From: Pontederia crassipes
Taxonomy: Eukaryota; Streptophyta; Magnoliopsida; Commelinales; Pontederiaceae
Direction of reading: 5' to 3'
Assembly: GCA_030549335.1 (NCBI GenBank)
Contig: CM060198.1
Location: 49,627,353 to 49,691,352, forward strand
Length of the DNA stretch: 64,000 bases
Shown: piece after piece, positions 11,443-59,756 of the stretch
Position numbering within the stretch: position 1 is the first letter of the stretch
Layout: each line of letters opens with the position of its first letter
Program-made: the position numbers and the translations under genes
The notes under the pieces: model-generated
What the model was told of the DNA's origin: nothing
Seen by the model: the letters and a program-made list of their open reading frames with translations, nothing else
Database searches by the model: none

Positions 11443-11629
11443 TCTTCTTATATCTCTTCTTAATCAGTGAGCAATTCTTTCAATTTCAGGATCAAATTCC
11501 AAAATTGGATTTGAACTCCTAGTGCGCTTATCAGAAGATTCCAGGATTGGTTGTGATTGAATATTTAGTAGTACCCGAGGCTTGTTCGGTCGTAAAAACT
11601 ATAAAACAGTGTCAAACAGGATTAATCAA

Positions 11630-12600: not shown

Positions 12601-12761
12601 TTAAAAATGTCGTGACCTTTATCTGCAAAAGAAAAAATATTAGATTATTCACAGAAATAAAAATAATTAAAACAAATAGTACATATTTGCAGAAAAATTA
12701 TTTACAATTTATTTACATCTCCTAATAATTCATAAAAATCAGAAATTAATTAATAAAATAT

Positions 12762-12779
12762 TTCCCGGCAACGACGTCA
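12762..12779 (-). other. Element 1 primer binding site
   Basis: The minus strand reads TGACGTCGTTGCCGGGAA six bases from the end of the 5' LTR. It differs at a few positions from TGGCGCCGTTGCCGGGGA, the complement of the plant tRNA-Asp 3' end, which is intact in element 2 at 43791-43808. Confidence 0.8.
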
Positions 12780-12785
12780 AAAACT

Positions 12786-14525
12786 TGATGCGTAAAATGA
12801 TGTAGCAAAATAAAATCGCTAGCAAGTGCACTAGTCGCTCAAGTAATATAATAATAGGAGTAAGAGTGTCGAACCCACGAAGAATATTATTAATAAAAGT
12901 TCTGAATTTATAAATTAATTAGAGAGGAAAAACAAGGATTTTGAAAATGAGTTTTATAAAATAAAATAAAGAAAATAAGATAAGATAATATGATGATGTT
13001 GAAGTTAGGCCTTAGTATGAAAATAGATCAGGATAAATATTTGAACCATAAAAGATAAATTTAATCTTTAATGATGGATTAGAGTCTCTCTAAAGTAATC
13101 TAACATGATTAACTTGTGGTTTCCACGGCTGGCATCCCTCAACCTAAGCATGTAGAACTATCTTAAATTAATAAGAATTGAAGTTCCACGACTGGTACCC
13201 TCAAAATCTTATTAAAATTAAGATGCATTAAATTGGATTCCTTAAACTATTAACCACTCTACAAACTGGTATAGATTAATAAACCACACAAATTTGATTC
13301 TCCACACACTAGTTATCAAATTTATGTTAATTATTAATTTCAAATAAAATCAATTATTATTAGTATAATGAATTCTGAAATTAAACACTCCACAAACTGG
13401 TATAGCCTAATTCAGAAATTCAATTAACTAACATAAAAGTATTAAGCACAATTAATAATTGATCAGAAAAGATTAAAACAAATAAAATAGAGTCCAAACA
13501 TTTTCCTTCAATTAACAATCTCCTAAAATAATAATCCTAAAAACATAGAGTTCATCCTAGAAATTTTGGAGAGATAATAAAATACAAATTATGAAAATTG
13601 GGAGAATTACACCCAAAATAGATAAAAGTCGAAGCTTCGGATCACGGGCAGACAGTTGGGCAGCCTCTCGGACTTGATCAGAGTCGCGATCAACCTCCGG
13701 CCATCGCACCTCTCTCCTCTTGGTCGTAGCCTGCAGAGCTACGACTTGCTGTGAAAGAACCTGAACTTCAGAGCACCCCTTGGGACGACAACTTTTTCAC
13801 GTATTTATAGGTGCGAACGACCTTCAATTTGATCACGGTCGTGATATCGTATGGTCGACTTTAAATTTATCGGATAAAACTGATCATAGTCTCAGCCAAA
13901 ATGATAAGTTCTATTACGCCCAAGAAGATAAACTCTTTTTATCTTTACTTCTTTAAATCTTGGCCAAAATGATGATTTCTTTTCCATTACGCCCAAAACG
14001 ATGAGTTCTTTAATTTTGGCCAAAACGATAGGCTTCTTATCTTTACCCCCTCCAAATCTCGGTCAAAACAAAGAAGAGTCCTTATCAAATCTTGGCCAAA
14101 CTTCTTCTAATCTCGGCCAAAATATCTTGGGGGTAAAGCCAAATCTCAACCGATACGTTGGAGTTCTCGGCCATAAGGAACAAATTCTTCTGAATTTCGG
14201 CTGATACGTCATCTCGATCTGAATCTCGATTAATACGGATAGATCTTTGGTGATTTATCGGCCGATATGAACTTTGGGGTTAAAGTTCTTGACTGAAACG
14301 TCCATTCTTGATCAAATATAAATCATGTATTCGATTTTTTCTACAAAAATAATTATTAAAATTTAGTTAATCCATCCACAATTAAAATATTCAGAAAATT
14401 AATAATTAATATCGATAAATCTGGAATTATGACTAAAGTGACTAAAAATGATGCATGCCATGATCAAATTATAGAAAAAATAATTAAGATAATAAACTAA
14501 AATATGTTATATTTTGCATTCATCA
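12786..14525 (-). repeat. Element 1, 5' LTR
   Basis: This 1740-base LTR pairs with 6459-8218. Differences are scattered single bases and short indels; some CGGCC words in one copy appear as TGGCC or CAACC in the other, as expected from C-to-T decay at methylated sites. Confidence 0.92.
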
Positions 14526-19738: not shown

Positions 19739-21130
19739 TTACAAAGTTTGCATCCAGCTGCAAGCAAGGAGTGTCCTCATCTTCCTCCTCTTTGAGAGTT
19801 TCTTCATCTTGCCGGCATCCCTCTGCCTTCCAACACCTGCAAGCATGTTCGACAGGATCACAGTGCTTCCGGCACTCCAAGGCTCGAGATCACGCAGATG
19901 AGAAGCCGCCAGTTCTGCGAGTTCGAGATTTCCTTGATGGCGACTAGATCCCAGCAGTGCCCCCCACACAAAAGAATCTGGCTTCATGGGCATTGCTCTG
20001 ATCAAGTCATAAGCTTCTCCAAGATTCCCAGCTCTGCCAAGCAGATCCACCATGCAAGCATAATTTTCCAGCCTTGGCACGATCCCATATTCACCCTGCA
20101 TCGCCCGGAATAACTTCCTGCCGAGCTCAACTTTCCCTCCATGACTGCAAGCCGAGAGGAGTGCCGTAAATGTCAGATGGTCGGGCGCCATTGCTTCCTT
20201 CTCCATTTGGTAGAAAAGCTCGATGGCTTCGTCGCAGTATCCATGGTTAGCATAGCCAAAGATCATAGAATTCCAAGCAACCGTGTTCCTTTCCCGCATG
20301 CTCTGAAAAACTCTGCATGCATCCGAGATGAGGCCGCCCTTGGCATACATGTCGACCAGCGCGCTGCTTGCGTGCAAATCCTTTCCAAGTCCGAGCGCCA
20401 GAGCATGGCCGTGGAGCTCCTTCCCGCGCCGCAGGTCGGCGACATTGGCGCAAGCTGACAGAAGGCTGCTAACGGTGACGTAGCTCGGCATTACTCCGGC
20501 AACTCTCGTCATTTGCTTGAAGACCTCGAAGGCTCTTCCGTATTTGAAATTGAGCACCAATCCGTGGATCACCGAAGTCCAAGAAACCACGTCGGGTTCG
20601 ATTCGTTCCGCTTGCATCTGTATCAACGAATCCATGGCCATCCCGAAGTCGCCCGCCCGAGAGAAGCCAGAGATGAGCGCGTTCCAGGTGACGGCATCTG
20701 GTTGCACTCCGAAAGCTCTCATCTTGACCGACAGGACCATCGCGGGTTCCGGTAGGCCTCGCTGCGCGTAGCCCGCGACCATGGAGTTCCACACCACCAG
20801 ATCCCTCTCAAGTGTTCCGTCGAACACAAGGCGAGCGCTCCGAACTCGCCGGCACTTGCAGTACATGTCGATCAGCGCGCTGCCGACGAAGGCGTCCGAG
20901 TCGAAGGACGAGCGGACGACGACGCCGTGTACGCCCCTCCCGGCGTTAAGAAGGGAGAGGTGGGCGCAGGCTCGAAGGACGCCGGGGAGGACGTAAGGGT
21001 GCGGCCGGAAGAAGCCTCCGTCGCCGCTCCGGAGGAACTGGTGGAAGAGGCGGAGGACGTCCTTGTGGAGACCCTGGCTAGAGGAACGGTTGATGAGTTC
21101 GATCCAGCCGCCGTGGTTTGGTCGGGACAT
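19739..21130 (-). CDS. PLS-class pentatricopeptide repeat protein with E domain
   Basis: An uninterrupted 463-residue intronless reading from the ATG at 21130 to TAA at 19739. PPR proteins bind single-stranded RNA in mitochondria or plastids; E-type PLS proteins usually specify C-to-U editing sites or help RNA processing. Repeats run through most of the protein, with SALIDMYCKCRRVRSARLVFD, VVWNSMVAGYAQRG, VTWNALISGFSRAGD, VSWTSVIHGL, SALVDMYAKGGLISDACRVF, VAWNSMIFGYANHG and LTFTALLSACSHGGKVELG, followed by the E motif region (MVDLLGRAGNLGEAY, FVWGALLGSSRHQGNLELAE). No DYW deaminase follows, so editing activity would need a partner. The frame stays open 52 codons upstream (to 21286), but MSRPNHGGW is the plausible start. 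It recalls Arabidopsis At5g59600 in the C-terminal third; this is from memory, not a search. Confidence 0.88.
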   Translation of the reverse strand: MSRPNHGGWIELINRSSSQGLHKDVLRLFHQFLRSGDGGFFRPHPYVLPGVLRACAHLSLLNAGRGVHGVVVRSSFDSDAFVGSALIDMYCKCRRVRSARLVFDGTLERDLVVWNSMVAGYAQRGLPEPAMVLSVKMRAFGVQPDAVTWNALISGFSRAGDFGMAMDSLIQMQAERIEPDVVSWTSVIHGLVLNFKYGRAFEVFKQMTRVAGVMPSYVTVSSLLSACANVADLRRGKELHGHALALGLGKDLHASSALVDMYAKGGLISDACRVFQSMRERNTVAWNSMIFGYANHGYCDEAIELFYQMEKEAMAPDHLTFTALLSACSHGGKVELGRKLFRAMQGEYGIVPRLENYACMVDLLGRAGNLGEAYDLIRAMPMKPDSFVWGALLGSSRHQGNLELAELAASHLRDLEPWSAGSTVILSNMLAGVGRQRDAGKMKKLSKRRKMRTLLACSWMQTL

Positions 21131-21286
21131 CGACCGGCGGAGAGCCCTAAAAGGGCCGGCGGCCGTAAGGATATGCGGCTTTGCGCGATATCGTTTTGGG
21201 CATTGGGATTTTATTCCGATTAAGTCGAACACCACTAACGCTGTGCGATTTGAGTCGAGGACGGACAACCCAAAAAAATCTATCAT

Positions 21287-22326
21287 TTTTAACTTTATTT
21301 AATTAATAATATGATGGTATCTTAAAAAATTTGTTACAGAAGAATCACTGATGACGTAACACAAATATTAAATCCATATATTATGAAACATGGAGACTTT
21401 TGTTGCAATCATATGAAAAACTTGGCATGCTCAACATTTAAGCTATGTTTATCCTAATTTCATTTGGATTATGAGTGTATTTATGTGTCTGCTGGTCTAT
21501 GCTGCTGTTCTTATTTTGGGGATTGAGAAACCTAACATGTTCGGCATTTAAACCATGTTTATGCTACAGTAATGCTAATTGTTTGGGTTTTGTGACGGTT
21601 AAAGCTCGTATAAGGAGATAGGTGGTGATATATCACAACTAAAATTTCTCATGGTTTATGTATCAAGAACGGGCTTTGGACATGTTAAAGTTTTGAATTT
21701 TTCAATATTGTTAGATTTTCATCCGACTAATTTAATATTTGGATGCATGTCAGAATCTAAATTTCTAACATAAGCCTAGTGACACTCAACGCCTCTAAAA
21801 TTATATTAAACCTTGCCACACACAAGTATTCAAAATATCGCTTCTACGCCTTTTCAAGATATATTATTTTTTAAACTCAAACTTAGTACTTTTAGCTCAC
21901 ATATTATTCATCCCTCGATCGAGATTTGAACCAGTCCAACAATATATGTAATCTAGGATTCTAAATCTTCACCGCAGGGTACATGCTTCTTATGACTATT
22001 CTTGTAGTAGATATCAACACAAAATTAGATTGAAGGCGCGTAGCGTGGCTTTGCGGGCCAAGAGTGGCACACATGGCAAGGATGCACAAGGTCGAACAAT
22101 GAAATGGGATGGCTTGGTCCCTCCACTTTCTCCTGTCCGTCCAAAGTGGCCTGCTAATTTAGTACACCTCCCTTCCTGTTTACACGGTGAATGCAAACCT
22201 ACAAAGGGGATCGCCTCTAGCTAGCTATCTGAATTCGCCATGGAGCAATCTCTGCGTTCGTCTTGTTCATGAAAGATAACAGCAAAGAGAGAGCCCAGAG
22301 ATCGAGGGGCAAGACGAGAAGTGAGA
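21287..22326. other. Spacer between PPR and LTI65-like genes
   Basis: AT-rich sequence with no coding evidence. It must hold the promoters of both diverging genes. No unambiguous ABRE or DRE core was found close to the LTI65-like start. Confidence 0.5.
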
Positions 22327-38960: not shown

Positions 38961-40214
38961 AAAATCACGATAGTTTAGATGAGATTTATGAAAATAATCG
39001 TTTAAATTGTAAAAAGTTTTTTATTTAGTACAAGAAGTTCAAGTGGTTGGAGGTAAAAGATATTAGGATCTTCTCAGACCTAGGACCCGCAATGCTATGG
39101 TGCAAACTAAAATTTTATTTATTTATATTAACAATACAAATTTAAACTAAGCATAAATAACAAAAAGTATATAATTAAAGTAAAATAGTTATGAGCCATT
39201 GGACTTTTTAAATTAATAAATGGCATCATCTAAAATTAAAAGTCCAGTAATTAATCAAAATTTTCATGTCATTATAAATTAGTATTCCAATTTAATTGAA
39301 TAAAATAGAACTAATAAGGTTTTCTCTTCCACCTTTTAATTATTTTAATACGAAAGATAAAAGATTTCCAAAAAGAAAAAAAATCATAAGATACCAAGAG
39401 ATCAAACAAATAGGGAAATATAATCTCATTATGCACTTGACCATGCTAATAGTTTGGAGAATATGAAAATTAATTATGTGAAGTTATTTATAATTTTTTT
39501 TTCTAAAGGATTGAGTTTTAAATGACAAAATTATTGATTCCAAATAACTTATCAACATATGGTGCTATATAATTATATAGATAATAGATATGATTATATT
39601 TTTATGGGCCAATTGACCCCACAAAGGACCTTGTAGGTTCGCCACTGGATCTTCTCTTGAGATGGAAGACAATAAGGATTTGATTTCTCATGCATCATTC
39701 AAATAAAATTTGGATAAGCTACTTGAAGACATGTTATTATCACATTTCTTCTAAGCAATGGATCTCAAAGGCATGGGACTCAATTGCACATTGTGTTTTT
39801 GTTGTTAGCAAAGTTTTAGTGGGTGTACTAAGGAGGTTTTGTTGAACCTTGTATCGGTTATTGTTTTCACATAAAGAGGACGCATAATGCAGTAAGAAAA
39901 TGAACTCATTAACCAACATAAAAAGAATCATCAACAACAATTTTGTTCATCATCTTTGAGCTCTAAAATTTTAATGACTCAAATCATGCGGTCAGTTGCA
40001 ATTATAATTTGATGATTCAAATCTTTTTTTTTCTTTTTTTTTCCTTTAGTGTACAAACATTCGACTCTGCCAAACTTATAATCCACTTTGTTGAGCGTAC
40101 ATTTGCCTCTCCTAAGATGCATGTTACCAACTCATCTTCTTAGATCGCCTAATTAATCCTTAATTGTTGGATGTTACAATTTTGTTTCACGTGTTTTTCC
40201 AGGACTAGAAGAAT
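38961..40214. other. Intergenic AT-rich stretch
   Basis: No gene or complete mobile element recognised. Contains poly-T tracts near 40020-40050. The plastid-derived block begins at its right edge. Confidence 0.45.
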
Positions 40215-40395
40215 AAAGTAAATCTATTATCGGACAAAATTGAAAAACTCAACACGAAGGAGGAGAAAGAAATAATTGTAACATGGTCTCAAGTTATCTA
40301 CCATTATACCCATGATGATTGGCCATGCAATTGCTATTCATAATGGAAAGGGACATATACCCATTTATATAATGGATGGTATGGTAGGTCACAAA
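40215..40395 (+). pseudogene. rps19: Plastid-derived rps19 fragment
   Basis: Reads [18 protein letters not shown], then after a one-base frame change [19 protein letters not shown] and [12 protein letters not shown], which is the middle of plastid ribosomal protein S19. The start is missing and the 3' end after VGHK appears deleted, joining directly to the rpl22 leader. The fragment is nuclear because it is embedded in nuclear repeats and carries disabling changes. It is the first gene of a colinear rps19-rpl22-rps3 block, the order in angiosperm plastid genomes. Confidence 0.88.
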
Positions 40396-40458
40396 TTTTT
40401 CTAACTAAAAAATTAAAGTAAAAAGTGTTTATCATTCATTAGTAGGAGATAACCTTAT

Positions 40459-40797
40459 GATAAAGAATTTGAATTCAAGCAGAGAAGTAAAAAAATTTAG
40501 CTTACCAGAGATGTAATATGTCTGTTTTCAAAGTGCGAAGAGTAATTGATCAGATTCGCGGACGTTCCTATAAAGAAACACTTATGATACTAGAACTCAT
40601 GCCTTATCGAGCATCTTATGCCATTTTAAAATTAGTTTATTCTATAGCAGCAAACACGAATCATAATATGGGTTTGAACGAAGCATATTCATTCATTAGT
40701 GAAGTCAAAGTCAATAAGGGTCCTATTAGAAAAAAATTAAGACCTCGGGCTCGGGGTCGGAGTTATCCGATAAAATGACCCGCCTATAATATAACAA
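40459..40797 (+). pseudogene. rpl22: Plastid-derived rpl22, broken by a stop and a transposon
   Basis: The reading begins near ATGATAAAGAA (40459) and an in-frame stop (about 40516) separates it from the well-kept part at 40518-40778: [51 protein letters not shown] and [12 protein letters not shown]. The stop TGA after PIK stands where plastid genes have an arginine codon, a one-base change. The following codons (ACC-CGCC-TAT-AAT-ATA-ACA) lead into the 9-base target of the inserted element and resume at 41906 as ATA ACA ATT GTA TTA AAA, the ITIVLK end of L22. Confidence 0.9.
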
Positions 40798-41905
40798 GGA
40801 TATAATGGAGGTCCTCCCTACTTAAGGGGGGGGGATCGTCCTCCTTAATTTATTAGTCGTTCGATGCCACATGGACAGACGATGGCTTAGAAGCGTTTTG
40901 CTCAACTATATACCCTAGTTCAAAGACAAAAATTGTGTCATCCACGCCCTGCGCCTGCCCGTCGTGCTCCGTGGTGTACCTCCTGCTCCATGCTCCGTAG
41001 TGCTCTGTAATTGTGCACTACTGCCGTGCTCTACATCCTTCCTCTGTGCGCCGTCATTGGCGCGCGCTACTGCCCTCACTGCTACCACCATGCACTATTA
41101 GCCTTGCACGAACGAGGTGATCTACTTCCAACCCTCACATAAGATTCCTCCTTGTCGCCTGAATAGGGGCATCATCGAGGTGACGGGGCGAGATCCGCAA
41201 ACTGCAAGACCCCGCCGCCCTTGATGCCGCTCCCCGCCCTCTCCATTCCGGTCGCCACTCACTGCCCTCACCACTCTAGTCGCCCAATCCCGATCGCCGC
41301 TAGAGTCGCTCATTGCCATCATCATTCGTCCACTTCCAGTTGTTGCTCGCTCATCTCTCCAGTCCCCACCCAGTCCCGCTCACTGCTTTGTTGCTCTAGT
41401 CGCCACACAACTAAGGTCCTGGGCATAGGCATCATCGGTAGACTACAGGGCCTCACCTCCCTTGATGCCACTCCAATTGTCACTCTTGATGCCTCTCCAA
41501 CCGCCCTCACCGCCCTTGCTATTTCAGTCGCAGCTCCGATCGCCACTAGCATTGTCACTCGCCCTCTGTCATCACTGCTTGCCTATTCTCAGTCGCCACT
41601 TGCTCGCTGCTCCAATCACCACCCCCAGTTTTGCTGCCCTCGCCACTCCGGTCGCTGTCTACTCTCCCTCGTCGCTGCCATCGTTGATCACTCACTGTTG
41701 TCACCGATCGCTTACTCCCGATCACCGCTCGCTCGCCGCCGACACTCATCGCCCGCTCTCAGTCGCCCTCGCTCTCCCACTCACAGCCGACCACGGAAGC
41801 ATTCTTCGGCTAAACGATCGCCGCTCATTGCTTCTGCATCGGATGACTACGACGAGCAGGAGGAGCGTCCTCCCTCTTTAAGTAGGGAGGATGCCCATTA
41901 TATCC
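40798..41905. mobile_element. Mutator-like non-autonomous element in plastid-derived rpl22
   Basis: Terminal inverted repeats of about 40 bases: GGATATAATGG then TCCTCCCTACTTAA at the left, mirrored at the right by TTAAGTAGGGAGGATGCCCATTATATCC in two parts. A perfect 9-base target duplication ATATAACAA flanks it (40789-40797, 41906-41914), as for Mutator-like elements. The interior (40930-41870) is a GC-rich low-complexity field of GTCGCC, CGCTC and CACTGCC phrases. Its long open frame (41221-41955) runs through the inverted repeat into rpl22 and is rejected as a protein. Confidence 0.88.
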
Positions 41906-42113
41906 ATATAACAATTGTATTAAAAGAGAAATCAAAAGATCAATCTCCAATTTAGATTTTAGAAAAATTCATATTAAATCAAATCCTATAAAATTATATA
42001 TATACATATACATATACATATATATAAATATATAGATTAGATGGAATGGAACAAAAATATAATAAAAAAATATGGGAGAAAAAATAAATTCACTTGGTTT
42101 CAAACTTGGTACG
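41906..42113 (+). pseudogene. rps3: Plastid-derived rpl22 end and rps3 start
   Basis: The first bases complete the L22 phrase ITIVLK. After an AT-rich spacer with a (TA/CATA) repeat (41995-42040), an ATG at 42072 opens MGEKINSLGFKLGT, the start of plastid ribosomal protein S3. The reading is cut after codon GGT-ACG by the LTR retrotransposon and resumes at 50315. Confidence 0.88.
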
Positions 42114-43784
42114 TGATGACATGAATTTCTTACTCATTATTGTTAGAGTAAAAGCACGATTTTCTTGATTTATGCTGCAATAAAATAATATAAAATCTAC
42201 ATTTTACTTGTTATATGAAATCTTCATGTCATCTTAGCTCTTTTACTGAAAACATGAATAAAATCTTCTAAATTTATAAACTTTTGTCTTTTAGTAGGTA
42301 CCCGCACGTTGCATGATGGTATCCGACAGTAAAAGAGTCCCTACATGGGGGTATCTGACGCTGCTAAGACCAGAAGCTGAGCTGGAAGAAAATGACAAAA
42401 TGGTGCCACCTGACACACGCAGGGAATATAATAGAGGTGCAGAAAAGAGATAAAAGCACTGAGACAAGTGTCACAAATCCACCTGCCTGATGGAAAAGAG
42501 AGGAATCAAAGAGAATATAATATATCTGGCTATACAAGTGTCACACATAAGATGGTTGAACAAAAAGAAGATGTTGAACAAGGGACAAGTGTCAAAGATC
42601 CAATGATGGACAGAAGTGATGCCAAGATATAAAAAGAAAATAATGTCTCAAGGAAAAAAGGGATTGGCCAGCAATGAACGAGAGGCAACATTAGAAAGGC
42701 AATGTGAGAACCAGCCTAAGGGCATGGAGGAGGCCAACCTGCAGGAAGAGGAGAAGCCACTTGGGAGAGGAAGAACATCAACTGAACCGAGAGGGGAAGC
42801 TGGAGCTCTAATCCTAGTGTTGTCTACTGCATTTCCTATTTTTCTTACTTCTTTTTTATTGCTATTTCTTTAGTTTTCTCTATCGTAAAATATTTAGTGT
42901 TAGGATGATGGTGTTTTGTGCTATGATCTCCATAGTTATGTCTAACTAATCAACCCATGAGATTGAAGGGTCATTTGATGGGTCTGAATTTAGTTTGATG
43001 TTCTTATTCGATATTGGATGTTTTGTTTTCATGGCATTTGATCTAATTGTCTATCTCACGAATGTCCTATTTGCAAGTGCTTCCTCTTCATGTGATGGTT
43101 CCCCTGAGAAGGGGGTGTATGTCATTAACAACATGCTATGAGCCGAAAGGTTAGCATGTTACAAGAAGGAAGTATTCTCAGTATTGATTCTTATTTTCCT
43201 AAGTAGAATGAATCAAGAGAGGATTTCTGTGGATTTCTAATGTAGTATCACCTAATGGTGAATTGACTCGGTTCGAATACAAGAGTGGAAGAGCCGAATG
43301 GTACTTTTCATGAGAATGAGAAGCATCCACCATTAGTACTACCATTCGAATGCAGACTTAGAAGAAGCGACATTTGTTTACTAAGTTCCTCCATAAGATG
43401 ATCCTCCGTGCCTCTGTTTTATATACTGTTGAAGCAACGATAATTATTTTATCTTTTACTTGAGTTTTCCAATTAAACACGAAAATAATAAATAAATTAC
43501 AAAATCTAAAATACAAAACACGTCTTTACTTCTCTTACTATTAAAATCAGATTCACTTCTTTCATTGTTACATAAGTCTAAAAACAAATACAACTTCTCT
43601 CTCTGTGTTTCGACCGTGATCTATAGATCGACGACGGTTGTATACTTGCAACTTGAGAAGTAAGTTGGGATTATAAATTTTAAATTTATTTACGTTCTGG
43701 TAAAAGGGAATCCGATCTTCACATACGTGTATCTACTATGCAAATACCAACTATTTCTCATATCTGCACAGATTTCTCACAACA
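42114..43784 (+). repeat. Element 2, 5' LTR
   Basis: 1671 bases, paired with 48638-50314. Contains two matching blocks of DNA with apparent transcript-like composition (AAGATGTTGAACAAGGGACA near 42567) present in both copies. Substitutions and small indels are spread along the pair, showing an old insertion. Confidence 0.93.
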
Positions 43785-43790
43785 AGTTTT

Positions 43791-43808
43791 TGGCGCCGTT
43801 GCCGGGGA
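43791..43808 (+). other. Element 2 primer binding site (tRNA-Asp type)
   Basis: TGGCGCCGTTGCCGGGGA, six bases after the 5' LTR end, is complementary to the 3' end of plant tRNA-Asp with CCA. Confidence 0.92.
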
Positions 43809-44348
43809 GAGTTTTGAATTTGTTTCTAGATTTTACCTTGTTTGATTTATATCTGATATAATTGTTTTATACCACCACATTGTTTATAATCATATTCTTG
43901 TCCATTTACATTTTAGTTCTCTTTTTCTCTTTATTTTCCTTTCTCTAGATTAGTTTTTGTTTATATTTGCCTTTGTTTTTACTTACCTTATATTTTCACT
44001 GTCTATATCATATTCCATTATTTATATTCAATCCTTGCTTTTTGTCAATTCTTTTTCTATTGAGCCTAATTTTACTTTTCTGCACTTTATTTTTCTAACT
44101 ATCAATCGTATCTTAGTTTCTGTTTCACTTCATGTTTGTTCATGTCTTGATGTCTTGCACTTAATCTTATTATATGATGAGTTCTAGCAATGCAGAAAAT
44201 TTTGAATTTGTCTTTTGGTCACATGTCAAACTGAGAAGAAGTCAGCTAGCACTTTGAGGATCAATATAAGATAGATATGAGTTGGTTGATTCGGCCTCAG
44301 AACTATTATCAATCAAGTGGAATATCAATCAATGAAAACTGAGGTAAA

Positions 44349-45939
44349 GTGTATTCTAAAGTTGAAGATATCATATCCAAATCTATATTCAGAAATATAG
44401 TTTCAATGTTGAAAGATCCTCACAAGTTTACTGCAATCAAGTACATTTTGTCCAACAGTCTTTCAATGCTTACATGCCTACCTCACATGGTCAGAAAAGT
44501 TCAAGTTACTGGAATCTTCAACAAGACATACAAAGTCCGCCATATTATCATCAAAGTCAAGATCAAGTTTCAGAATTTTAGGTTGCAGCCATGGATATTT
44601 CAGCAAATCATCAAATACTTACTCAACCCATATGGAAATCAGATCTTAAGATTAAGATGGAGAACTTCTTGAAGCAGCAACAAAAGAAAAATGCAATCAT
44701 GGAGCAACTACCTATGGCAGTGGATGCTCTACAAGCCAAATCTCAAGTCCTAGAGGTTCAAATTTTTCTACAGTTTAATCCAGCAATTTTACAAACCCAA
44801 CATGCTCCTCTGAAAGGAAGAATTTCAGGAAGTGAAGATGGGAATTGAGAAAGAGATACATCAAGAGAAAAAATTGATTATAAAGAAGAAAAGTAATGAA
44901 CCATCTGCAGTTGAAACTAAAGCAAACAATCAGGAAGAGACTTCATCAAGTAGTATCAAGTCTGCAATTTCACATTCAACCTTGAACATTACACAGTCTG
45001 AAGTTGAAAAGAGACAAGATAAAGTTGCAGAAATGACTAAAGAGGCTACTTCAATGATACCATAAGGGAATCACATCGCAGATCCACTTCTAAATGACAT
45101 GTCCAATGTAGAAGAGATTCTAGAAAGCTCAAATTCAAATACTTCCACCAGTTTGCTTTCAGATTGTCCTCAAGTTACGAGTACCTTCATCTCGGACGAG
45201 CATAGCAACTCAATTCACTTATTGACTACTCCAGAAAATGAGTTACTTGGTGCACCCAAATCAAAGATGAAAATACTCTCATCTACTCTTAGATGTGAGG
45301 TTCTTGGATTTACCACTAGCTGTCCAGTTGAGGTTTCACTGATACAGTTTCTTTCATGTATCAATATGAGATACTACTAGCTGAAGAATCTCCAAATCTT
45401 ACGAGCAAAGATGAAGGAACATCAAAAGACAAGAAGTGTCCTGAAGTTGAAGTTAGTTGCAATCTTTTTGGAGAGGATACCCAGAATTTCAAAGTCTCAC
45501 TCATGCCATTACTCACTAATTAACAAGAAGCTATAGCAGCAAAGAAACACAATGAAACTGAAATGACCAATATGAATTTGAAAGCTGAATAGTTTTTTTT
45601 CGTGCAGAGGAGGCTACAATATAATTCAGTTTGCAAATAGAATAGCCTTCTAAGGAAGATCATAATTTACCAACTGAAATCTTAGTTTAGGAACTTGAAG
45701 ATTTTTCGACATTCACACATTTGAGGAGGTCATTGAAGGAGTGGCTACTTAAACAAGATGGTGATCCAAGAAATCAAGAAGTTATACATGTGAAGTTAAG
45801 TCCCACTGAAGGAGGGATAGAGACAACTGAAAGACAAAAGTCTGTCAATGACAAGTTGAGATACTCATACTTGATTGTTGAAGCTATCCACAGATTGATA
45901 TCTCTACTTGATGACATAATACTTTTTAAAACCCCTTGA
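44349..45939 (+). pseudogene. Element 2 degraded gag-region readings
   Basis: Several short plus-strand frames follow each other (44349-44672, 44591-44848, 44832-45065, 45099-45380, 45721-45939). One contains KMENFLKQQQKKNAIMEQL and AVDALQAK, resembling the coiled-coil Gag tail of Athila/Tat relatives; downstream is rich in K, E and S. No CCHC knuckle, protease or polymerase motif is present. I cannot tell which parts were coding in the ancestor. Confidence 0.4.
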
Positions 45940-46281
45940 AGTGAAGAAGGAAGAAAGTCTAGTCTAAGACTATAAAGAATGACGCTTACTGGGAGGCAAC
46001 CCAGTCTAATAATACTTTTCATTTTATTTTTGCAGGAATCAAACAAGTGCGCCAATTGGAGTTTTTGATACAACATTGCACTACATATATCCCCACCTAC
46101 TGCATCAAATACCACCGACTATAACTCTCTTACTTTTGATTTATCAATTGCTATACCTTTTGGTTATGCTCTGACTAAAATCTTTTCTGCAAACATAGAA
46201 GTCGAAGAAGAAGGAAACATGTGAAAAAAAGATGACAGAGCAACATACTCCCATCTGAACTGAAAAAAAAATTGAACCATA

Positions 46282-47585
46282 CACTACAAGAAAATTGTCA
46301 TTTTTCGACGGGCAATTTTCGACGGATAGAAATCCATCACAATTTGCAATGGATTTTACGATAGAAATGTTTACATTAGAATTTCCAACGGTTAAAATCG
46401 TCGGAAATAAAAATAAAAAATTATGTAATTTGTTATATTATTATTTTATTTTTTGACGATTAGGAACGTCGATATTTCTGACGGATATCTATCCGCCGCA
46501 ATTTCCGACGGTCGTGACCGTCGATAAATGTAAAATAATATAATATAAGGAGTATTTTATTGATATAATTAGCGACAGTTTAAACCGTCGTAATTTTTGA
46601 CGGTTTCGATCGTCAATAAATGAAAAGTAATATAATATAAGGAGTATTATATTAATATAATTAGCGACAAGTCCGAACCGTCGCAAGTTCTGATGGTTTC
46701 GATCGACGGTAATAATTAGCGACAGTTCAAACCATCGGTAAAATAAAAATATTATATATAACTAAATATAGTATTTTATTTTTATAATTAAATAATTTTC
46801 GACGGTCATAACTGTCGGTAACTTTAAAAATAATTAATATTTGCTTTTTCGACGGTCAGAGCCGTTGATAATTAAAATTTCAATATCCCACTTTTTTCCC
46901 GTTTTCATGCTTTCTCATCTTTCCACCTATACATATATAATATATATATATCTATATATATTAATCTTTCACAATCCCACCCTTTATTTCTTTCCTCCTC
47001 TCCTCTCTCTCTCCCTCTCCCGATCGACCGGATCTCTGCCGTTGGCCACCTGGCGGCCGTTCTTTCTGTTGGCCTTCGGATTGGCCTCCTGGCAGTCGAA
47101 TTTGGTCGCTGGCCGCCAAATTGGCCGCCTGGCGGCCGAATCTGGTCACTGGCCGCCGGCGACCAGCTAATTTTTTTATATTATAAAAATTCTTTGCGAC
47201 AGTTTTGACCGCCGAAAGTTTCGGCGGTCGTCGAATCATTGAAATCATCGGCGGTAGCAATCGTCGATATTTGCGACGGTCATCACGACCGTCGATAGTT
47301 TCAGCGGTCGCGACCGTCGATGTTTCCACGATTTCGTCGACCGTCGCAAATATCGGTCGTCGTGACCATCGAAACTTACCGCCGAAAGTTTCGACGATCG
47401 TGACCGTCGGACTTCCGTCAAAATTTTCGACATTGTTTTTCCAATCATCGAAAATTGATTTGTGACAACCATTTTTCGGACGAATCGATTCCGTCGAAAA
47501 AATCGTCGAAAATCATCATTTTCGACGGTTTTCGGGAAATTACAGATGATTTCGACCGTCTATAATTTCCATCTTTCTTGTAGTG
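46282..47585. mobile_element. Non-autonomous CACTA element nested in element 2
   Basis: Ends CACTACAAGAAA and TTTCTTGTAGTG are classic CACTA (En/Spm) terminal inverted repeats. The 3-base target duplication ATA is perfect (46279-46281, 47586-47588). About thirty copies of (T)CGACGGT/ACCGTCG(A) crowd both subterminal regions, matching the transposase-binding repeat style of this superfamily. There is a tandem duplication with a period near 92 bases (46521-46700). The middle (46900-47040) has a TATA-rich and CT-rich tract followed by TGGCGGCC-type repeats. No transposase. Confidence 0.93.
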
Positions 47586-47642
47586 ATACCTGCAAGTTAA
47601 AAAATGTTTTCCTTTGCATTTTACAATCTCCCAACTTGTTTC

Positions 47643-47680
47643 AACACTGAGGACAGTATTGGAATTACGTTTGGGGGAGT
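47643..47680 (+). other. Conserved phrase and purine tract in element 2
   Basis: AACACTGAGGACAGT followed 12 bases later by GTTTGGGGGAGT. The reverse of 9335-9371 in element 1 has the same two parts. In Athila/Tat-like elements such a phrase lies between gag-pol and the 3' LTR; its role is not known to me. Confidence 0.6.
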
Positions 47681-48637
47681 CAATGGTATGATCTAACTCT
47701 TATTTATCTATTATCATAATTTTGAGGACAAATTTTAACATTTTTCACTGCGTGCTTTACTTTTACATCCTAGCTACAAATTTTCACTTTTCATATACAT
47801 TTGCTGCTAGGAATCAAAACTGTGATTATATTCTTATTTTTGAACTACATTTGCTTAGTTTCTTATGCATTAACTAGAAAGCATTAGGAAAAGTTCTGCC
47901 TGCATGTAGGATTACCTCTGTGCATGATCTGTCCAATGCATCCCAGAAATGTAACATTTCAATTGCTAAAATACTGACTTGGATCAAAGTGACAGTTATA
48001 GGTCCAGAAATATCTTCCATCCCCTAGCACTAAGGATCCATAAGAAACTATAGCTTTAAATTCTCAAAGTAAAGTAAAGTGAATGTGAAAGTGCAATAAG
48101 TTCAAATTATAAAATCCCAACCCCCGTCTTAAGTAAGAGTACTAGGAGGAGTAAAAAAAAATCTTTTTCAAAAATTCCTGAGCCTGCTGCATGAAATATG
48201 CGCGACCACTATGTATAATTATAGGGTTGTTGAGCATATTTTAATCCAAATGGTTACTCTTGCTTTAAGTGAGGGAGTCAAAAAGGGGAAGTAAATGTAA
48301 GGTTGCAAACAAAAAAAAAATGGAAACAAAGGGAACAAAGTTAAGAATGTTTACAAAATTTCTGAAAAAGATCCTTAGGACTAGGGGAATGTGCTGAAAG
48401 TTAGTATGGACTTGTTAAAGGAGTAAAATTCTTTCTTAGAATTGTTACTTCAGTGATACAATCTTATGTGTACTTAATTGAGCTAAAGTTTGCTAATTGC
48501 TGCTTGACAATTATGTATGGTGAGTTTTTCCTACTATGGCTAATTATTTCTTTTTGTGGCTATTGCAACTATTGTATCTTGCCTTAAATTTCTAAGTTTT
48601 GCTTGAGGATAAGCAAAAACATAAATTTGGGAGAATT

Positions 48638-50314
48638 TGATGACATGGATTTTTTACTCATTATTATTAGGGTAGAAGCATGATTTACTTGATTTATGCT
48701 ACAATTAAATAATATAAAATCTACATTTTTAAACCTTTTGCCTGTTATATGAAATATCCATGTCATATTAGTTCCTTTGCTGAAAATATGGATAAAATCT
48801 TCTAAATTTATAAACTTTTGTCTTTTAGCAGGTATCCGCACGTTGCATGATGGTATCCGGCGGCTAAGTTAAAAGAGTCCCTACATGGGGGTATCTAACG
48901 CTGCTAAGACCAGAAGCTGAGCTGGAAGAAAAGGACAAAATGGCAGCTGCCACCTGACACACGCATGGAATAGAACAGATGTGCAAAAAAAATGATATAA
49001 GCACTAGGACAAGTGTCACACATCCACCTGCCTGATGGAAAAGGAGAGGAATAAAAGAGTATAATATATTAGGCTATATAGGTGTCACACATAAGATGGT
49101 TGAACAAAAAGAAGATGTTGAACAAGGGACAAGTGTCAAAGATTCAATGGTGGACAGAAGTGATGCCAAGATATAAAAAAGAAAGAATACCTCAAGGAAA
49201 AAGGGAGTTGGCTAGCAATGAACGAGAGGTAACATTAGAGAGGCAATGTGAGAACTAGCCTAAGGGCATGGAGGAGGCCAATTTGTAGGAAGAGGAGAAG
49301 CCACTTGGGAGAGGAAGAACACCGGCTGAGTCGAGAGGAGAAGCTGGAGCTCTAATCCTAGTGTTGTCTGCTGCATTTCCTATATTCTTACTTCTTTCCA
49401 ATTGCTGTTTCTTTAATTTTCTCTATCGTAAAATGTTTAGTGTTAGGATGATGCTGTTTTGTGTCTAACTAATCAGCCCATGAGGCTGAGGGGTCATTTG
49501 ATGGGTCTAGACTTAGTTTGATGTTCTTATTCGATTTCGGATGTTTTGTTTTCGTGGCATTTGATCTTATTGTCTATCTCATGAATGTCCTATTTGCAAG
49601 TTCTTTCTCTACATGCGATGGTTCCTTGAGAAGGGGGCGTATGTCGTTAACAACATGCTATGAGCCGAAAGGTTAGTAGGTTGCGAGATGGAAGTATTCT
49701 CAATATTGATTCTTATTTTCCTAAGTAGAATGAAGCGAGAGAGGATTTCTGCATATTTCTAATGTAGTATTACCTAATGGTAAATTGACTTGGTTCGAAC
49801 ACGAGAGTGGGAGAACCGAAGGGTACTTTTCATGAGAATGAGAAGCATCAGTCATTAGTACTACCATCCGAATGGAGATTTAGAAGAAGTGACATCTGCT
49901 TACTAAGTTCCCCTCATAAGATGATCCCTCGTGCCTCTATTTTATATACTGTTGAAGCAAGTATACTTATTATATATTTTACTTTCCTCGAGTTTTTTTA
50001 GTTAAACACGAAAATAACAAACAAATTATAAAATCTAAAATACAAAACACACGTTTAGTTCTCTTAATATTAAAATCAGATCATCTTCTTTCATTGTTAC
50101 ATAAGTTTAAAAACAAATACAACTTCTCTCTCTATGGTTCGACCCTGATCTATACATCGACGATAGTTGTATACTTGCAACCTGAGAAGTGTAGTTAGGA
50201 TTATAAATTTAAAACTTATTTACATTCTGATAAAAGGGAATCCGATCTTCACATACGTGTATCTAGTATGTAAATACCAGCTATTTCTCATATCTACACA
50301 GATTTCTCACAATA
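48638..50314 (+). repeat. Element 2, 3' LTR
   Basis: 1677 bases, preceded by the polypurine tract TTTGGGAGAATT (48627-48637). It pairs with the 5' LTR over its full length. Confidence 0.93.
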
Positions 50315-50440
50315 GTACGACCCAACGTCATCATTCCTTTTGGTTCACACAACAAAAAAATTATTCTATGGGTCTACAGAAGATGAAAAAAATATGTAAT
50401 TATATCAAGAAGTATATAAAAAAATAAAAGAATCTCTTAA
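50315..50440 (+). pseudogene. rps3: Plastid-derived rps3, continued
   Basis: After the duplicated GTACG the S3 reading continues: TTQRHHSFWFTQQKNYS, GLQKMKKICNYIKKY. It decays into AT-rich nuclear sequence near 50440, the right end of the plastid-derived block. Confidence 0.9.
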
Positions 50441-51125
50441 GGAATCACTATTCAATAGCAAAAGGAGGAAAATGATTTAAGTGTAAATGAATATTGGAGA
50501 AAAACTACAATGTCAATTCTTTAATCTCTAAAAAAGACAGCTTCATAAACTATATAAAAATTTTCTTTATACATTAATGAGCTACCGATTTTTGCAACCT
50601 CAGTACCCCAAATTGATAACACATATTATCTTCTAATTTTCTTTTATCAACTTTGGCACCTGATCGCAAATGGTCAACCAGCAATAGAGATCCGAACGAT
50701 GACAAAGAGAAATCATAAAAGTTATGAACAAAAAAATATACTAGGAGATTAAAAAAGGGAACACTTGTTTGTTGACCTGAAGTCATCTACAAGTGGTGAA
50801 GCGTGGACATTGTCAACGAGCGGTCGGGTTGAGAGGTCATCGGTGACCAGTGAGGCCGGGGGTGGCTGACCGGAGATCAAGGTATGACAGAGAAGGGGAG
50901 GGGGCCTGAATAAAAAAAACCCAAACAGACACCTAAGTGCAACACATCAATCTCAGCCATTGATTCATTAATGTAACGATCGGACGCTTTGGATTCTTTG
51001 GTAGCAGGTTGCTACTGATTTCTTTTGTATCATAACACTTAATCACTTTCGTTGGGGAGGAACCTAGGTTAGATCCTCTAGAGCCCGGTCGGGGTTTAGA
51101 CCAAATTCTGGTTAGATTCAGTTTA
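50441..51125. other. Intergenic spacer
   Basis: No gene seen. 50770-50910 is a short GC-richer patch with GAGCGGTCGGG and GGTCATCGGTGACC phrases of unknown origin. Confidence 0.4.
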
Positions 51126-51130
51126 TTCCA

Positions 51131-51579
51131 TGTAATGACCTGAGGTCTTAAGGACCAAGATGGTTAGATGATTTGTCCCACGTGGGCAAAATATGGAGGC
51201 AGTCTGTCTCTTTACCTTACAAGACGCGTTTTAAATTCGTGCGGGCCGAAAGCCTAAAGCAAATAATATCTTGATTGAACCGAGAGTATTACAAAATCAG
51301 AGCCGACCTTGCGTGCTCACTTAAGCCATGTGAAAAAATATGAGTCATGGATCAACACGGATCGCTCAATGAGGACGTTGCATCCTCTAAGGGGGGAAGA
51401 ATGTAACATCCTGATCTTAAGGACTAAAATGGTTAGATGATTTGTCCCACATGGATAAAATACGGAGGTGATCATGGACTTATATATTGCAACTCCTTTT
51501 ATCTTTCAAAATGTGTTTTAAATTCGTGCGGGCCGAAAGTCTAAAGTCAATAATATCTTAATTGGACGAGGGTGTTACA
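51131..51579 (+). mobile_element. TRIM (miniature LTR retrotransposon)
   Basis: Two LTRs of 163 and 178 bases (51131-51293, 51402-51579) begin TGTAA and end TTACA and share CTTAAGGAC, ATGATTTGTCCCAC and TTCGTGCGGGCCGAAAG. The 108-base interior begins AAATCAGAGCC, a decayed tRNA-Met primer site (TGGTATCAGAGC type), and ends in the purine tract AAGGGGGGAAGAA. Flanks TTCCA (51126-51130) and TGCCA (51580-51584) match at 4 of 5. No coding capacity. No 5S rRNA-like promoter boxes, so it is not Cassandra. Confidence 0.85.
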
Positions 51580-54132
51580 TGCCATGTTGGTTTTTCCTAT
51601 TCATTGAAGAACCCAAACCGAGTTCTTTCAACTCGAGTCGAGTTCTTGTATAGAGAAATTTGGGTGCTAAAAAATAGAGACTTTGCCTAAACTTTTATAT
51701 TAATTTATGCATGCTTTCAATGTGAAATTAAAAGGAAACTATTCTTGAATCATCATAGAACATTGTAGGTATCAATTTATATTTTTAAACTTGATCAAAT
51801 GTATTAAAAAAATTATATTCAAAAGTGAATCCAACATTAACACACACATGACCAAATAGAAAAGGCAAATTTTTTCATGACCACTCTTGCTTTAATTAAC
51901 ACAGAGGGTTGTTCTACCAAGAGATGGCTAAAAGTTGCGATCACATGTGCAACGATGATGGAAAGAATATAGGATAAAGTTAGAGGAAAAACACAAACGT
52001 AATGGGAAGAAATATGAATTGAAAGAGACATTTAGGATCCTACTTTTAGGAAAAGTCATCAAAGTTCTAATCTAATTAGAAATTCTAATCATACTTCGTA
52101 TCCATAATTTATCTTTTATTTTTCATAATTTTTTGAAATTAATTAATTAACATCATTTTTTATTTTCAAATTTAAAATAACAATTTTATTATTTGATTTC
52201 TTAAATATTCTTATCTTTAAAACTCCTAATTTTAAGTTTTATCCTCGAGTCCTAATTCAATTCTACATCAAATTTCATTCCTTATCTTCTTTTACTTATC
52301 TTTTCTTTATTCTATCCCTCCTAAACATACTTATTTCTTAATTTTTGGAATTAAATAATTAATTGTTATTCTTATCTTTTAATCTTTGGAATAAAATATT
52401 AATTAATGCTATTTTATTTACTAGATATTTTTGTACCTAAAACTCTTATTTTTTAACTCATTGAAAATTCTTTATATAATCTAAACTTAAAATTAGACTC
52501 AAATTCAATTTTAAATCCTTAATATAATATTATTTTTTATCTCTCATTTAATAACATTTTTATTCTCGTTCAAACTTTTTTTTATCTTATCTTTTTCTAT
52601 TCTATTATCCTTCCATCGTCTATATTTTTATTTGTTCAAACTTTAACTTCCTTTAATAAATCCTAAACTTTTAGGTCTATTTTAATCATGAGAATTAAAT
52701 TTTAATTTGATCATTTTCTTACATACTACTTCAATTTGACATTAATATTTGATGAAGAGAGATTCGTGTGGAAACCGAGACAAATGTTGATGAGACCTAA
52801 TAAATTTTTTATCATACTCAAAATTGAGAGTCGTAATCGCTTAATTATGGTAAGTAGACCTTACAATTTTATAATTTATCCGGAGTTGACCTTGTTTCCT
52901 TTCGTCAGCTACTCGAGAAAGTCCATGAGGTGATGCACGACATCGCATTGTATACAATGACAAGGTTGAGCAATCGATGGTGCACCTTTCGTTTCTTGGA
53001 ACAAGACGAGAACAAAATTAAAATTTACGAAAGATTGACCACATAAATGAATAAATAAATGTTCTGTATGGTGGTGTAAATTAACGTCATCGTGTCCATT
53101 TGGGCATTCAAATGGCTCAAAGTTTTTGGATGTATATATATGCCTTAAAACATTTATTGGTTTTTGTCAGTTAAGAACTATATTGGTGAAAAAAAAGAAA
53201 AAAAAAACTTATGTTTTACTTAAAATGATGAGGAAATAATTGTTATATCAATTTAAAATTAAACGAAAGGAAAAAGGATTTTACTTCTTTAATCACACAT
53301 TTTGTTCCCTTGTTACATTTCTCTCCCTCTCTCTATATATGACAAACCATGTACCAAACGTAGCATCTTAAGCATTATTTTTAAGTTTTTTTTTGACATC
53401 TGACTAATTTGGTCAACTTTTATAAGTTGTTTTATTTCAGCATTATTTGTCGAGAGACAGAAAATATTGAAAAAAAAAAAGAATCATATTTATTATGTAT
53501 CTCTTAACAGCACATACACATGTTAATATATATATATATATATATATATAGTATTTAATTATATATATAATGTTTGTGCTACCTCTAAAACCATCGTATT
53601 CATATCAATCATCATTTTATTCATAATCAATGATTGATTCATCATCATCTGATTAATTGAATAATTTTTTAATTAATTATCCATAATGAATCTAATAATG
53701 ATTAATAAAAGTATGATGTGACAACTCAATGGGTTGTTGCCATATCGCGTGGCAAGGATTGATGATTGTTGTATAGACAGTGCAATTTGGATTATAAATG
53801 ATGCTAAATCTATTGGAGCTGCTCTATTGCCATACTTGGTTATGATTAAAGTTTTAGCACATTTTTAATGATACTCTTGTGGACTATGCATAAAAGAAAA
53901 AATGTGCATATGCTGATCACATGTTTTTTCATGGTGCACAGTGTGCCCGCTAGGGTGCGTTGGAGAAATGGAACTAATGTTCCTCTGAGTTTCAGGGAGT
54001 AGTTGGATTTAATAGATTTTGAGGTGTGTTAATGATGAGGAACTTGATGTGAAAGAAAAAAATAAATGTGATGGATTAAATTTTTTATAAATTTTAAATA
54101 AAAAATTGATATTATAAATATAAAAAGAAAAA
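51580..54132. other. AT-rich intergenic region
   Basis: No gene recognised. 52100-52730 is a T-rich field of ATTTTTTATTCTT phrases. A pure TA microsatellite occupies about 53525-53550. Confidence 0.5.
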
Positions 54133-55284: not shown

Positions 55285-56406
55285 TTGTAGGATCCCAAAG
55301 AGCACCAAGAGGAGGGGAGGGGGTGAATTGGTATTCAATCAAAAGTATCAATTTTACAAAGATCGTCGTGGAAGTACAAAATCGATTCTTAAAACCTTTG
55401 CAAATAAAACAATTCAGATTATAAACATAATATGAACGGGGAGAGAGAGAGAAAATCAAACTCAAATCACACCTTGGCCTACGTCCCCGCTCCGACTTCT
55501 CGACCTCGAGACAGTTGGATATTCTACTAGAACTCTTCCTTTGTTTCAAATGGGACAAGGAAGAAAAGCCTTTTACACCACCATTTTTTCTCCGCTTCGA
55601 GAGGTAAGGCACACATCTCCTCAAATGAAACTAATTTATTTCTCTCACTCAAGAGGTAAGATTTTGAACCTCTTTTACACAGGAGCTCTCTCAATTTTTT
55701 TAACAAAAGTGTTTCTTTTTTTTACAATTCTATGCTCACAAGAAGAGAAGAGAGAAAGAAGAGAAAGCTATAAAATGAAAATTTCAAAATAATGATCTTC
55801 TTTTAATAACTTGAAGTTTTTCTTCAATGAGTGAATTGATGAATTTGCTTCTGACTTTGACATTCTTTTTATAGCCTTCATTACGTGGAAAATTTGTTCA
55901 AAAATTATTCCATAAATTTCTCCTTCAAATTTGATCGTTACTTTTCATTTGACTCGAAGGCCGATCGACTGCACATCTGAACTGGTCGACCGGCCTATGT
56001 GACCATTGCACGATTTCTTTAACTTTTGAGCTTGATCGGTCGACCGTTCCATCGATCAATACATTAACCAGTATTGGCTCGACGTCGTTCGGGATAGGTT
56101 CAGTATTTGTCGGTCGACCGATATCATCTCGACCAGCTTTCTTTGTTTCGATCAGCAGATTGACCGACCTCCACTCTTTTGATCATAACTTTCTGCACAG
56201 TTATCCAAATTAGATAGTCTTGAATTCTATGAGTAGCTAACATGATTCTCTACAACATTCATCCAAATATAGTTAATTATGTAATCAAAGTTTGTGCATA
56301 AACTTATCTCTTTTTCTTTAAACTCTTTCAGCATTTTAACTTTAATCTTTCGAGGTTTGTTTTATCAAAATATAATTTTATATGTCATTAAAACTTTGAC
56401 CCAACA
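55285..56406 (-). repeat. Element 3, 3' LTR
   Basis: 1122 bases. Contains a cluster of GGTCGACCGG/GATCGACC palindromic words at 55960-56165, also present in the partner LTR. Confidence 0.92.
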
Positions 56407-57645: not shown

Positions 57646-58380
57646 TTATTCTTTGTGGTGTTTGTATGATTTTCTTGTTGGCTTCTCGTTCTTATTTTTC
57701 TTTTTAACCAACTTGAGATACTTATCTAATTTTCTTATGTAGAGTGTGAGTTTCTTTTTATCCACTTCCTCTTCACTTGAATCTTCTTCTATTATATTTG
57801 CCCTCAATGCCAATGTTTTCTTCTTGGGGATTTTTTCTTCTTGAATTGAGATCTCATAAGTTAGAAATGAACAAATAAGATCATTAAAATTCAATTTGTT
57901 CAAATATTTTTCTTCGATCACGATCCTCTTCATATGCCATTTGAAGGAGAGAGACCTGAGAATCTTTTTTACTTTTTGGGGGTTAGATTTTTGCTCGCCT
58001 AAGGAGGCTAGGACATTCAAAATATCATTAAACCGAGCAACCATATCATTTATGAATTCATTATCATGCATTTTGAAAGAATCATATTGATGGTTTAAAA
58101 TATTCAATCTAGATTCTTTAACTTTGTCAGTTCCTTCATAAGTAGTGATGAGTTTTTCCCAAATCTCGGTTGCAGTTTCACAACTTGAAATCCGATTAAA
58201 CTCTGATGAATCCAAAGCACAATAAAAAAATATTTGAAAAAATCTTTTCTCTTTCTTTAGAATCTGTGGGTAACTTTTCATGAAGATAATAACATTTTTC
58301 AACATTGTCCCACATGTCGATATCAATAGAACAAATATATGTTTGGATTCTAATTTTTCAATAAGCAAAATTTGATGCAT
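57646..58380 (-). pseudogene. Element 3 Gag (UBN2-type Copia gag)
   Basis: A 244-residue minus-strand open reading. Copia-type Gag polymers package element RNA. Visible UBN2-family blocks: ALDSSEFNRISSCETATEIW, LITTYEGTDKVKESRLNIL, YDSFKMHDNEFINDMVARFN, LRSLSFKWHMKRIVIEE and LNDLICSFLTYEI-like text, then a lysine/glutamate-rich linker. The reading runs to 57646 before stopping; the first residues before MHQILL are in other frames. Confidence 0.85.
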
Positions 58381-58571: not shown

Positions 58572-59756
58572 TGTAGGATCCCAAAGAGCACCAAGAGGGG
58601 GGGTGAATTGGTTCAATCGAAAGTATCGATTTTACAAATATTGTCGCAGAAGCACAAAACCGATTCTTAAAACCATTGCAAATAAAGCAATTCGGATTAT
58701 AAACATAATATGAACGGAGAGAGAGAGAAGAAATCAAACTCAAAGACACGTGGTTATTGACGAAGTACGGCCATACCTTGGCCTACGTCCCCGCTCTAAC
58801 TTCTCGACCTCGAGATAGTTGGAGTTTCTATTAGAACTCTTTCTTTGTTCCAAATGTGATAAGGAAGAAAAGCCCTTTATACCACCCATTTTCTTCGCTT
58901 CGAGAGGTAAGGCACACCTCTCCTCGAATGAAGTTAATTTATTTCTCTCGCTCAAGATATAAGATTTTGAACCTCTTTTATATAGGAGCTCTCTTAGTTT
59001 TTTTTAACAAAAGTGTTACTCTCTTTTGCAATTCTATGCTCACAAGAAGAGAAGAGAGAAATAAGAGAAAGCTATAAAATAAAAACTTCAAGAGAATGGT
59101 CTTCTTTTAATAACTTGAAGTTTTTTTCAATGAGTGAATGGATACATTTGCCTCTAGCTTTGGCACTCATTTTGTAGCCTTCATTATGTGGAAAATTTGT
59201 CCAAAAATTATTCCACAAATTCCTCTTTCAAATTTGACCGTTATTGTTCATTTGACTCGAAGGCCGGTCGACCACACATCTAGATCGGTCGACCGGTTTA
59301 TTTGACCATTGCGTGATTTCTTCAGCTTTTGCGCTTGATCAGTCGACCGGTCCGTCGACCGATACATCGATCTGTATGGGCTCGACGTCGTTCGGGGCAG
59401 GCTCAATATTTGTCGATCGACCGGCATTTTTCATTCGATCGACCGGTATCATCTCGACTGGCCTTCTTTGTTTCGACCGAAAAGTTGATCGACCTGCACT
59501 CTTTTGATCATAACTTTCTGCACAGTTATCCAAATTTGATAATCTTATATTCTATGAATAGCTAACAGGATTCCCTACAACTTTGATGTTTATTATTTAT
59601 CCAAAATCTAATCATATCATAGTTAATTATGTAATCAGAATTTGTACATAAAGTTATCTCTTTTTCTTTAAACTTTTTCAGTATTTTAACTTTAATCTTT
59701 CGATGTTTATTTCATCAAAATATAATTTTATATGTCATTAAAACTTTAACCCAACA
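58572..59756 (-). repeat. Element 3, 5' LTR
   Basis: 1185 bases, partner of 55285-56406. The GGTCGACCGG word cluster is at 59258-59495 and is longer here, with an additional CGATCGACCGG unit. Confidence 0.92.

Follow-up and report, generated by a model that had tools for sequence, protein, structure and literature searches.

Plastid rps19-rpl22-rps3 DNA in the nuclear genome of Pontederia crassipes, cut by a Mutator-like element and by an LTR retrotransposon that holds a CACTA element

We analysed a stretch of 64,000 nucleotides of Pontederia crassipes DNA (GenBank assembly GCA_030549335.1, contig CM060198.1, forward-strand positions 49,627,353 to 49,691,352), hereafter the window, in which about 0.9 kb of plastid DNA lies in three pieces across positions 40226-50450 and comprises part of rps19, rpl22 and the start of rps3. 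The first piece (40226..40797, + strand) holds an internal portion of rps19, frameshifted and with its 3′ end deleted (about 70 bp at the end of the gene are missing), followed by rpl22 from an ATG at 40457. The second (41906..42113, + strand) carries the rpl22 3′ end, a spacer with a TA repeat and rps3 from an ATG at 42072, and the third (50315..50450, + strand) continues rps3 until it stops at the junction with host DNA. These bounds count the target duplications in. An original prediction, made from the letters of the window, had found the right locus, with ends (40215 and 50440) that each lie about 10 bp off. Judging from the broken frames, nothing at the locus looks functional.

For all three genes, the best matches in the PDB are chloroplast proteins. 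The rpl22 frame (40491-40778) contains the Pfam domain Ribosomal_L22 (2.9e-22) and matches chloroplast L22 chains best (3.3e-32), with bacterial chains next and a uL22m chain far weaker (1.3e-7). The rps3 piece matches chloroplast S3 at 5.7e-8 and otherwise yields one chance match at 0.29. The top match of the rps19 piece is chloroplast S19 (2.3e-13); since bacterial S19 scores near it (5.2e-12), the plastid identity of this piece, taken alone, would not be decisive, and its S19 fragment of 42 residues gave no Pfam match. Plastid DNA from other sources was looked for without a match, with rpl22 among viral and genome contigs and with the rps19-rpl22 DNA among plasmids, and nuclear copies served in its place. 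The window also codes for MYB-type, PPR and LTI65-type proteins, which make the setting nuclear, and for gag proteins of other long terminal repeat (LTR) elements. The gene order was judged from other nuclear copies, beside the order rps19-rpl22-rps3 that we take to be that of plastids. Plastid genes thus stand in plastid order within nuclear sequence, one mark of a nuclear plastid DNA segment (NUPT), as the original prediction had held.

The first interruption is a Mutator-like element of 1,108 bp (40798..41905) whose insertion point lies within rpl22. It has terminal inverted repeats that begin GGATATAATGG and is flanked by a 9-bp target duplication, ATATAACAA, at 40789..40797 and 41906..41914. 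Its ends match dispersed sites elsewhere in the assembly (64 match rows in all), and a full-length relative on contig C1 bears a 9-bp duplication of its own, TATTTTGTA. The element is thus Mutator-like both by its 9-bp duplication and by terminal inverted repeats common to dispersed copies. It is probably non-autonomous, given its size, and two frames tested in the interior gave no Pfam match. That interior is G+C-rich (0.57-0.58 at 41000-41749) and is possibly captured host sequence.

The second interruption, in rps3, is an LTR element of 8.2 kb (42114-50314) with the 5-bp duplication GTACG on both sides (42109..42113 and 50315..50319). It consists of a 5′ LTR of 1,671 bp (42114..43784, + strand), an internal region (43785..48637, + strand, CACTA element included) and a 3′ LTR of 1,677 bp (48638..50314, + strand). 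The LTR ends are of the form TG...CA, with the 3′ LTR terminating in TA. A primer-binding site, TGGCGCCGTTGCCGGGGA, which we take to be of the tRNA-Asp type, occupies 43791..43808 (+ strand), and a polypurine tract, AAATTTGGGAGAATT, was assigned by position at 48623..48637 (+ strand). The two LTRs, the 5-bp duplication, the primer-binding site and the polypurine tract make this an LTR retrotransposon. Among LTR matches elsewhere, 24 of 38 start exactly at window position 42114 (best 40 of 344 candidates scored). Across both strands of the internal region, none of the 28 open pieces outside the CACTA element that are 45 aa or longer contained a Pfam domain at E <= 0.01 (one gave a chance match below the cutoff, at 0.052), so that no gag-pol family was found; the element is therefore non-autonomous, and of LTR type by its structure.

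Matches on contig C18 point to a copy of nearly the same layout. The LTR start matches there at 12815402, the place corresponding to the CACTA insertion at about 12819575 and the second LTR at about 12820612; arithmetic on these match positions gives spacings of 4.17 kb and 1.04 kb, compared with 4.17 kb and 1.05 kb in the window element. These positions suggest a sister element, and the window element is therefore probably one of a non-autonomous family.

Inside the internal region of the LTR element sits a CACTA element of 1,304 bp (46282..47585), running from CACTACAAGAAA to TTTCTTGTAGTG with subterminal repeats, between two copies of the 3-bp duplication ATA (46279..46281 and 47586..47588). 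Three frames tested in its interior gave no Pfam match, and it is probably non-autonomous. All three element types therefore have target duplications of their own, ATATAACAA, GTACG and ATA, each read on both sides as originally reported. The description of a block cut by three nested transposons has to be amended: two elements cut it side by side, and only the CACTA element lies inside another.

We compared these features with the rest of the window's own assembly (1.13 Gb, 43 contigs). The rps19-rpl22 piece has at least 49 further match rows there (best 40 of 67 candidates scored), some of which share one locus. Seven plastid-derived loci were compared with the window, and in four (L002, L003, L004 and L008) its three pieces are contiguous, with overlaps at the joins of exactly 9 bp and 5 bp, matching both target duplications; chance is therefore excluded. 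A fifth locus, L006, has an empty site for the Mutator-like element only (9-base overlap), and L005 and L007 end short of that site. These uninterrupted copies, in which the site of either cut is empty to the base, demonstrate that the elements went into plastid DNA already joined, and they bear out the claim that the plastid transfer preceded the transposons. As far as nuclear copies can show, the genes are adjacent and do not come from separate plastid locations. It is extremely improbable that the block arose as a join made in assembly or from separate plastid fragments brought together: the locus is known from the assembly, but the target duplications are exact, contiguous copies exist elsewhere and the host flanks adjoin in paralogous loci.

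The plastid-derived nuclear copies also served as the reference for the plastid sequence, for which the majority base was taken across 18 aligned pieces from 16 nuclear loci, leaving out columns with fewer than three copies, the TA repeat and the ends. The window piece differs from this majority at 51 of 832 sites (93.9% identity), by 36 transitions and 15 transversions; 28 of the 51 are C>T or G>A, and at 10 of them the window base also occurs in another copy. Five copies were kept outside the majority, namely L047 (K 0.12) and the approximately 80% copies L006, L048, L049 and L050. These last four form a second class of rps19-rpl22 copies that looks older. Their identity to L003 is about 80-82% across as much as about 2 kb, and several matches cluster on contig C14; they may be old NUPTs, or plastid DNA that arrived through mitochondria.

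The host site itself survives elsewhere in the assembly. Host sequence to the left of the insert (39643..40225) recurs on three contigs: it is collinear with C15 (81% BLAST identity) and partly with C8 and C12. Sequence to the right (50452..53902) is collinear with C15 in blocks. On C15 about 16 bp lie between the blocks matching the two flanks, and on C8 window position 40225 is joined directly to 50452. The joint reads AAATCTCAATAG on both contigs, and in the window the insert parts AAATCT from CAATAGC. Plastid DNA is absent from the homologous pre-insertion site on C15 and on C8, a further mark of a NUPT, and these empty sites demonstrate that the plastid insertion altered the host DNA by no more than about 1 bp. 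C12 is a more diverged relative, consistent with a plastid-free site and too diverged for a base-exact reading. Beside the site, the PPR gene at 19739-21298 has a 95% copy at C15:9442258-9443663 in matching order; C15 therefore carries a duplicated segment, and the PPR pair marks a recent one, shared by C15 and C16. Since the C15 site is plastid-free, the plastid DNA came after the duplication, barring incomplete sorting or conversion. This duplication, to which the plastid-free copies of the site on C15 and C8 go back, thus adds an earlier event to the series originally proposed. If sorting was clean, the LTR element, lying as it does in plastid DNA that the duplicated site lacks, has to postdate the C15/C16 split.

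The place of the CACTA element in this order calls for separate evidence. Retrotransposition copies internal cargo. Nesting is by itself no proof that the CACTA element was the last to arrive: LTR elements can bring older passengers with them, and the CACTA element could already have been present in the parent LTR copy and be older than the LTR insertion at this site. However, every one of the 18 LTR-side locus entries inspected is CACTA-free at the site. The entries represent 17 different places, L011 and L023 being one and the same, and a few have small changes next to the site. The junction searches scored the 40 best candidates for each edge of the CACTA element, out of 3,303 on the left and 3,088 on the right; among these, no second copy holds both parts, and none of the other scored matches (48 rows for the left edge, 39 for the right) crosses an edge by more than 24 bp. 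A passenger origin is highly unlikely on this evidence. The CACTA ends, the 3-bp duplication and the empty sites in sister DNA mark a CACTA insertion, and the empty sites strongly suggest that it arrived after the LTR element had reached the site, assuming that no CACTA-bearing parent copy was lost or missed. The predicted order of these two elements is therefore the most likely one, on the grounds of the empty sites and not of nesting alone.

Taken together, the observations are very probably explained by one plastid fragment that entered a nuclear break, was cut by the Mutator-like and LTR elements and, within the LTR copy, received the CACTA element. The host segment would have been duplicated before the plastid insertion. 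A single contiguous fragment of about 0.9 kb was then joined into a nuclear break, presumably by end-joining repair, and lost the ability to code for protein, as nuclear plastid segments ordinarily do. Later, the Mutator-like element entered rpl22 with its 9-bp duplication and, before or after it, the LTR retrotransposon, in which no coding domain was detected, entered rps3 with its 5-bp duplication. Last would come the CACTA element, inserted between the LTRs of this copy with its 3-bp duplication. An order between the Mutator-like and LTR insertions was sought and given up: their sites do not overlap and terminal inverted repeats provide no clock.

Divergences were computed for the same events. 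The 5′ and 3′ LTRs differ at 171 of 1,648 aligned sites, a Kimura two-parameter (K2P) distance of 0.1135 (standard error (SE) 0.009), which is 0.057 +/- 0.009 per lineage (95% limits, here and below). The plastid copy has diverged by 0.064 +/- 0.018 per lineage. For the C15/C16 flank split, seven blocks with 3,215 sites (block K 0.055 to 0.183) give 0.060 +/- 0.006 per lineage, and the two blocks adjoining the site give 0.040 +/- 0.011. Synonymous divergence (Ks) of the PPR pair is 0.056 (SE 0.013, 462 codons), or 0.028 per lineage. The comparison of LTR with plastid-copy divergence that had been proposed could thus be made, without separating the two events (z 0.75). A "dated series of four events" was too strong a description, as only two of the four give a divergence and those two overlap. 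The clocks do not order the events; the order therefore rests on anatomy, and dates add nothing to it.

Several points weigh against the explanation preferred here. The divergence clocks fail to order its events and, at equal rates, the adjoining blocks (0.040) and the PPR gene (0.028) place the inserts before the split. What stands for the plastid state is the majority among nuclear copies, not the plant's plastid genome, and it may contain errors; the plastid piece may have travelled via mitochondrial DNA; and the CACTA junction evidence comes from the best 40 of 3,303 and of 3,088 candidates. The clock conflict means either that the inserts mutate faster or that the C15/C16 split was not clean. 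Under the latter, the plastid piece and the LTR element would predate the split, and C15 would be plastid-free by incomplete sorting or by later conversion from a plastid-free copy. The plastid copy and the LTRs both exceed the adjoining-flank split (z about -2.2 and -2.3, respectively) and half the PPR Ks, as such an age would have it. Against it, the C8 site is plastid-free as well, the split over all blocks is statistically no different from the plastid value (z -0.47), and the excess of C>T and G>A changes points to, and fits, faster mutation in the insert. We consider an insertion before the split unlikely, and retain the order in which duplication came first.

Two further uses of the divergences were rejected. 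Transversions over all blocks seemed to order the split before the plastid copy and the plastid copy before the LTRs (0.026, 0.018 and 0.013 per lineage), which fails with the two adjoining blocks (0.013). An absolute date for the LTR element would be 4.4 million years at an alternative rate of 1.3e-8 per site per year. It would be 8.1 million years at 7e-9 per site per year, the rate in PMC7037861, where it is given as some seven changes in each kb every million years. Neither date is put forward as a claim.

Over the whole window (G+C 0.37), no tRNA was found and nothing in Rfam reached the gathering score. A further LTR element on the minus strand occupies 6458-14525, with LTRs at 6458-8218 and 12785-14525 that are 93% alike and a Retrotrans_gag frame at 10429-11043. 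Direct repeats at 55286-56406 and 58572-59756, 83% alike, surround a copia-type gag frame at 57646-58380. A motif resembling TTGCTTGAG..ACAAGCAA precedes a polypurine-like tract at 743-802, 8215-8266 and 48583-48644, and at least two of these three places belong to LTR elements with different LTRs.

As genome debris the locus is ordinary and the product of a known process, but it is a well-preserved example: what happened in which order, and how the sites looked before insertion, can be read with unusual clarity. Because the pre-insertion host site, the uncut plastid sequence and the CACTA-free LTR element can all be read from one assembly, it allows an order without a clock and lets a clock be checked against that order, which makes it a locus for teaching or calibration. 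Transposable elements (TEs) are commonly given an approximately two-fold faster rate. Here the LTR K (0.113) is about twice the Ks of the neighbouring PPR pair (0.056), and the locus might, tentatively and if sorting was clean, give a calibration-free lower bound of about two-fold on the faster mutation of silenced inserts relative to nearby genes.

Non-autonomous LTR elements without coding capacity are known as the LARD type. The window element resembles them in its LTRs, primer-binding site, polypurine tract, 5-bp duplication and absence of Pfam domains from the 28 pieces, and differs in being placed by structure, without a named family. REANNOTATE reportedly combines nesting with LTR divergence. 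According to PMC2672092, it reads insertion order from interrupted elements, as we do; the substrate in the window is plastid DNA, not another TE. No identical case was found in a literature search, most subscription journals being outside its reach. NUPT surroundings are described as TE-rich (PMC3989485), split, collinear and TE-associated NUPTs are treated (PMC6698032, PMC12572781), and TE insertion is said to play a significant role in NUPT fragmentation (PMC7037861). Like the TE-fragmented NUPTs of the last source, the window locus is a short, decayed plastid segment in nuclear DNA, interrupted by TEs. What sets it apart is that other contigs preserve the host site free of plastid DNA, and that both cuts and the CACTA insertion have empty-site counterparts in the same genome.

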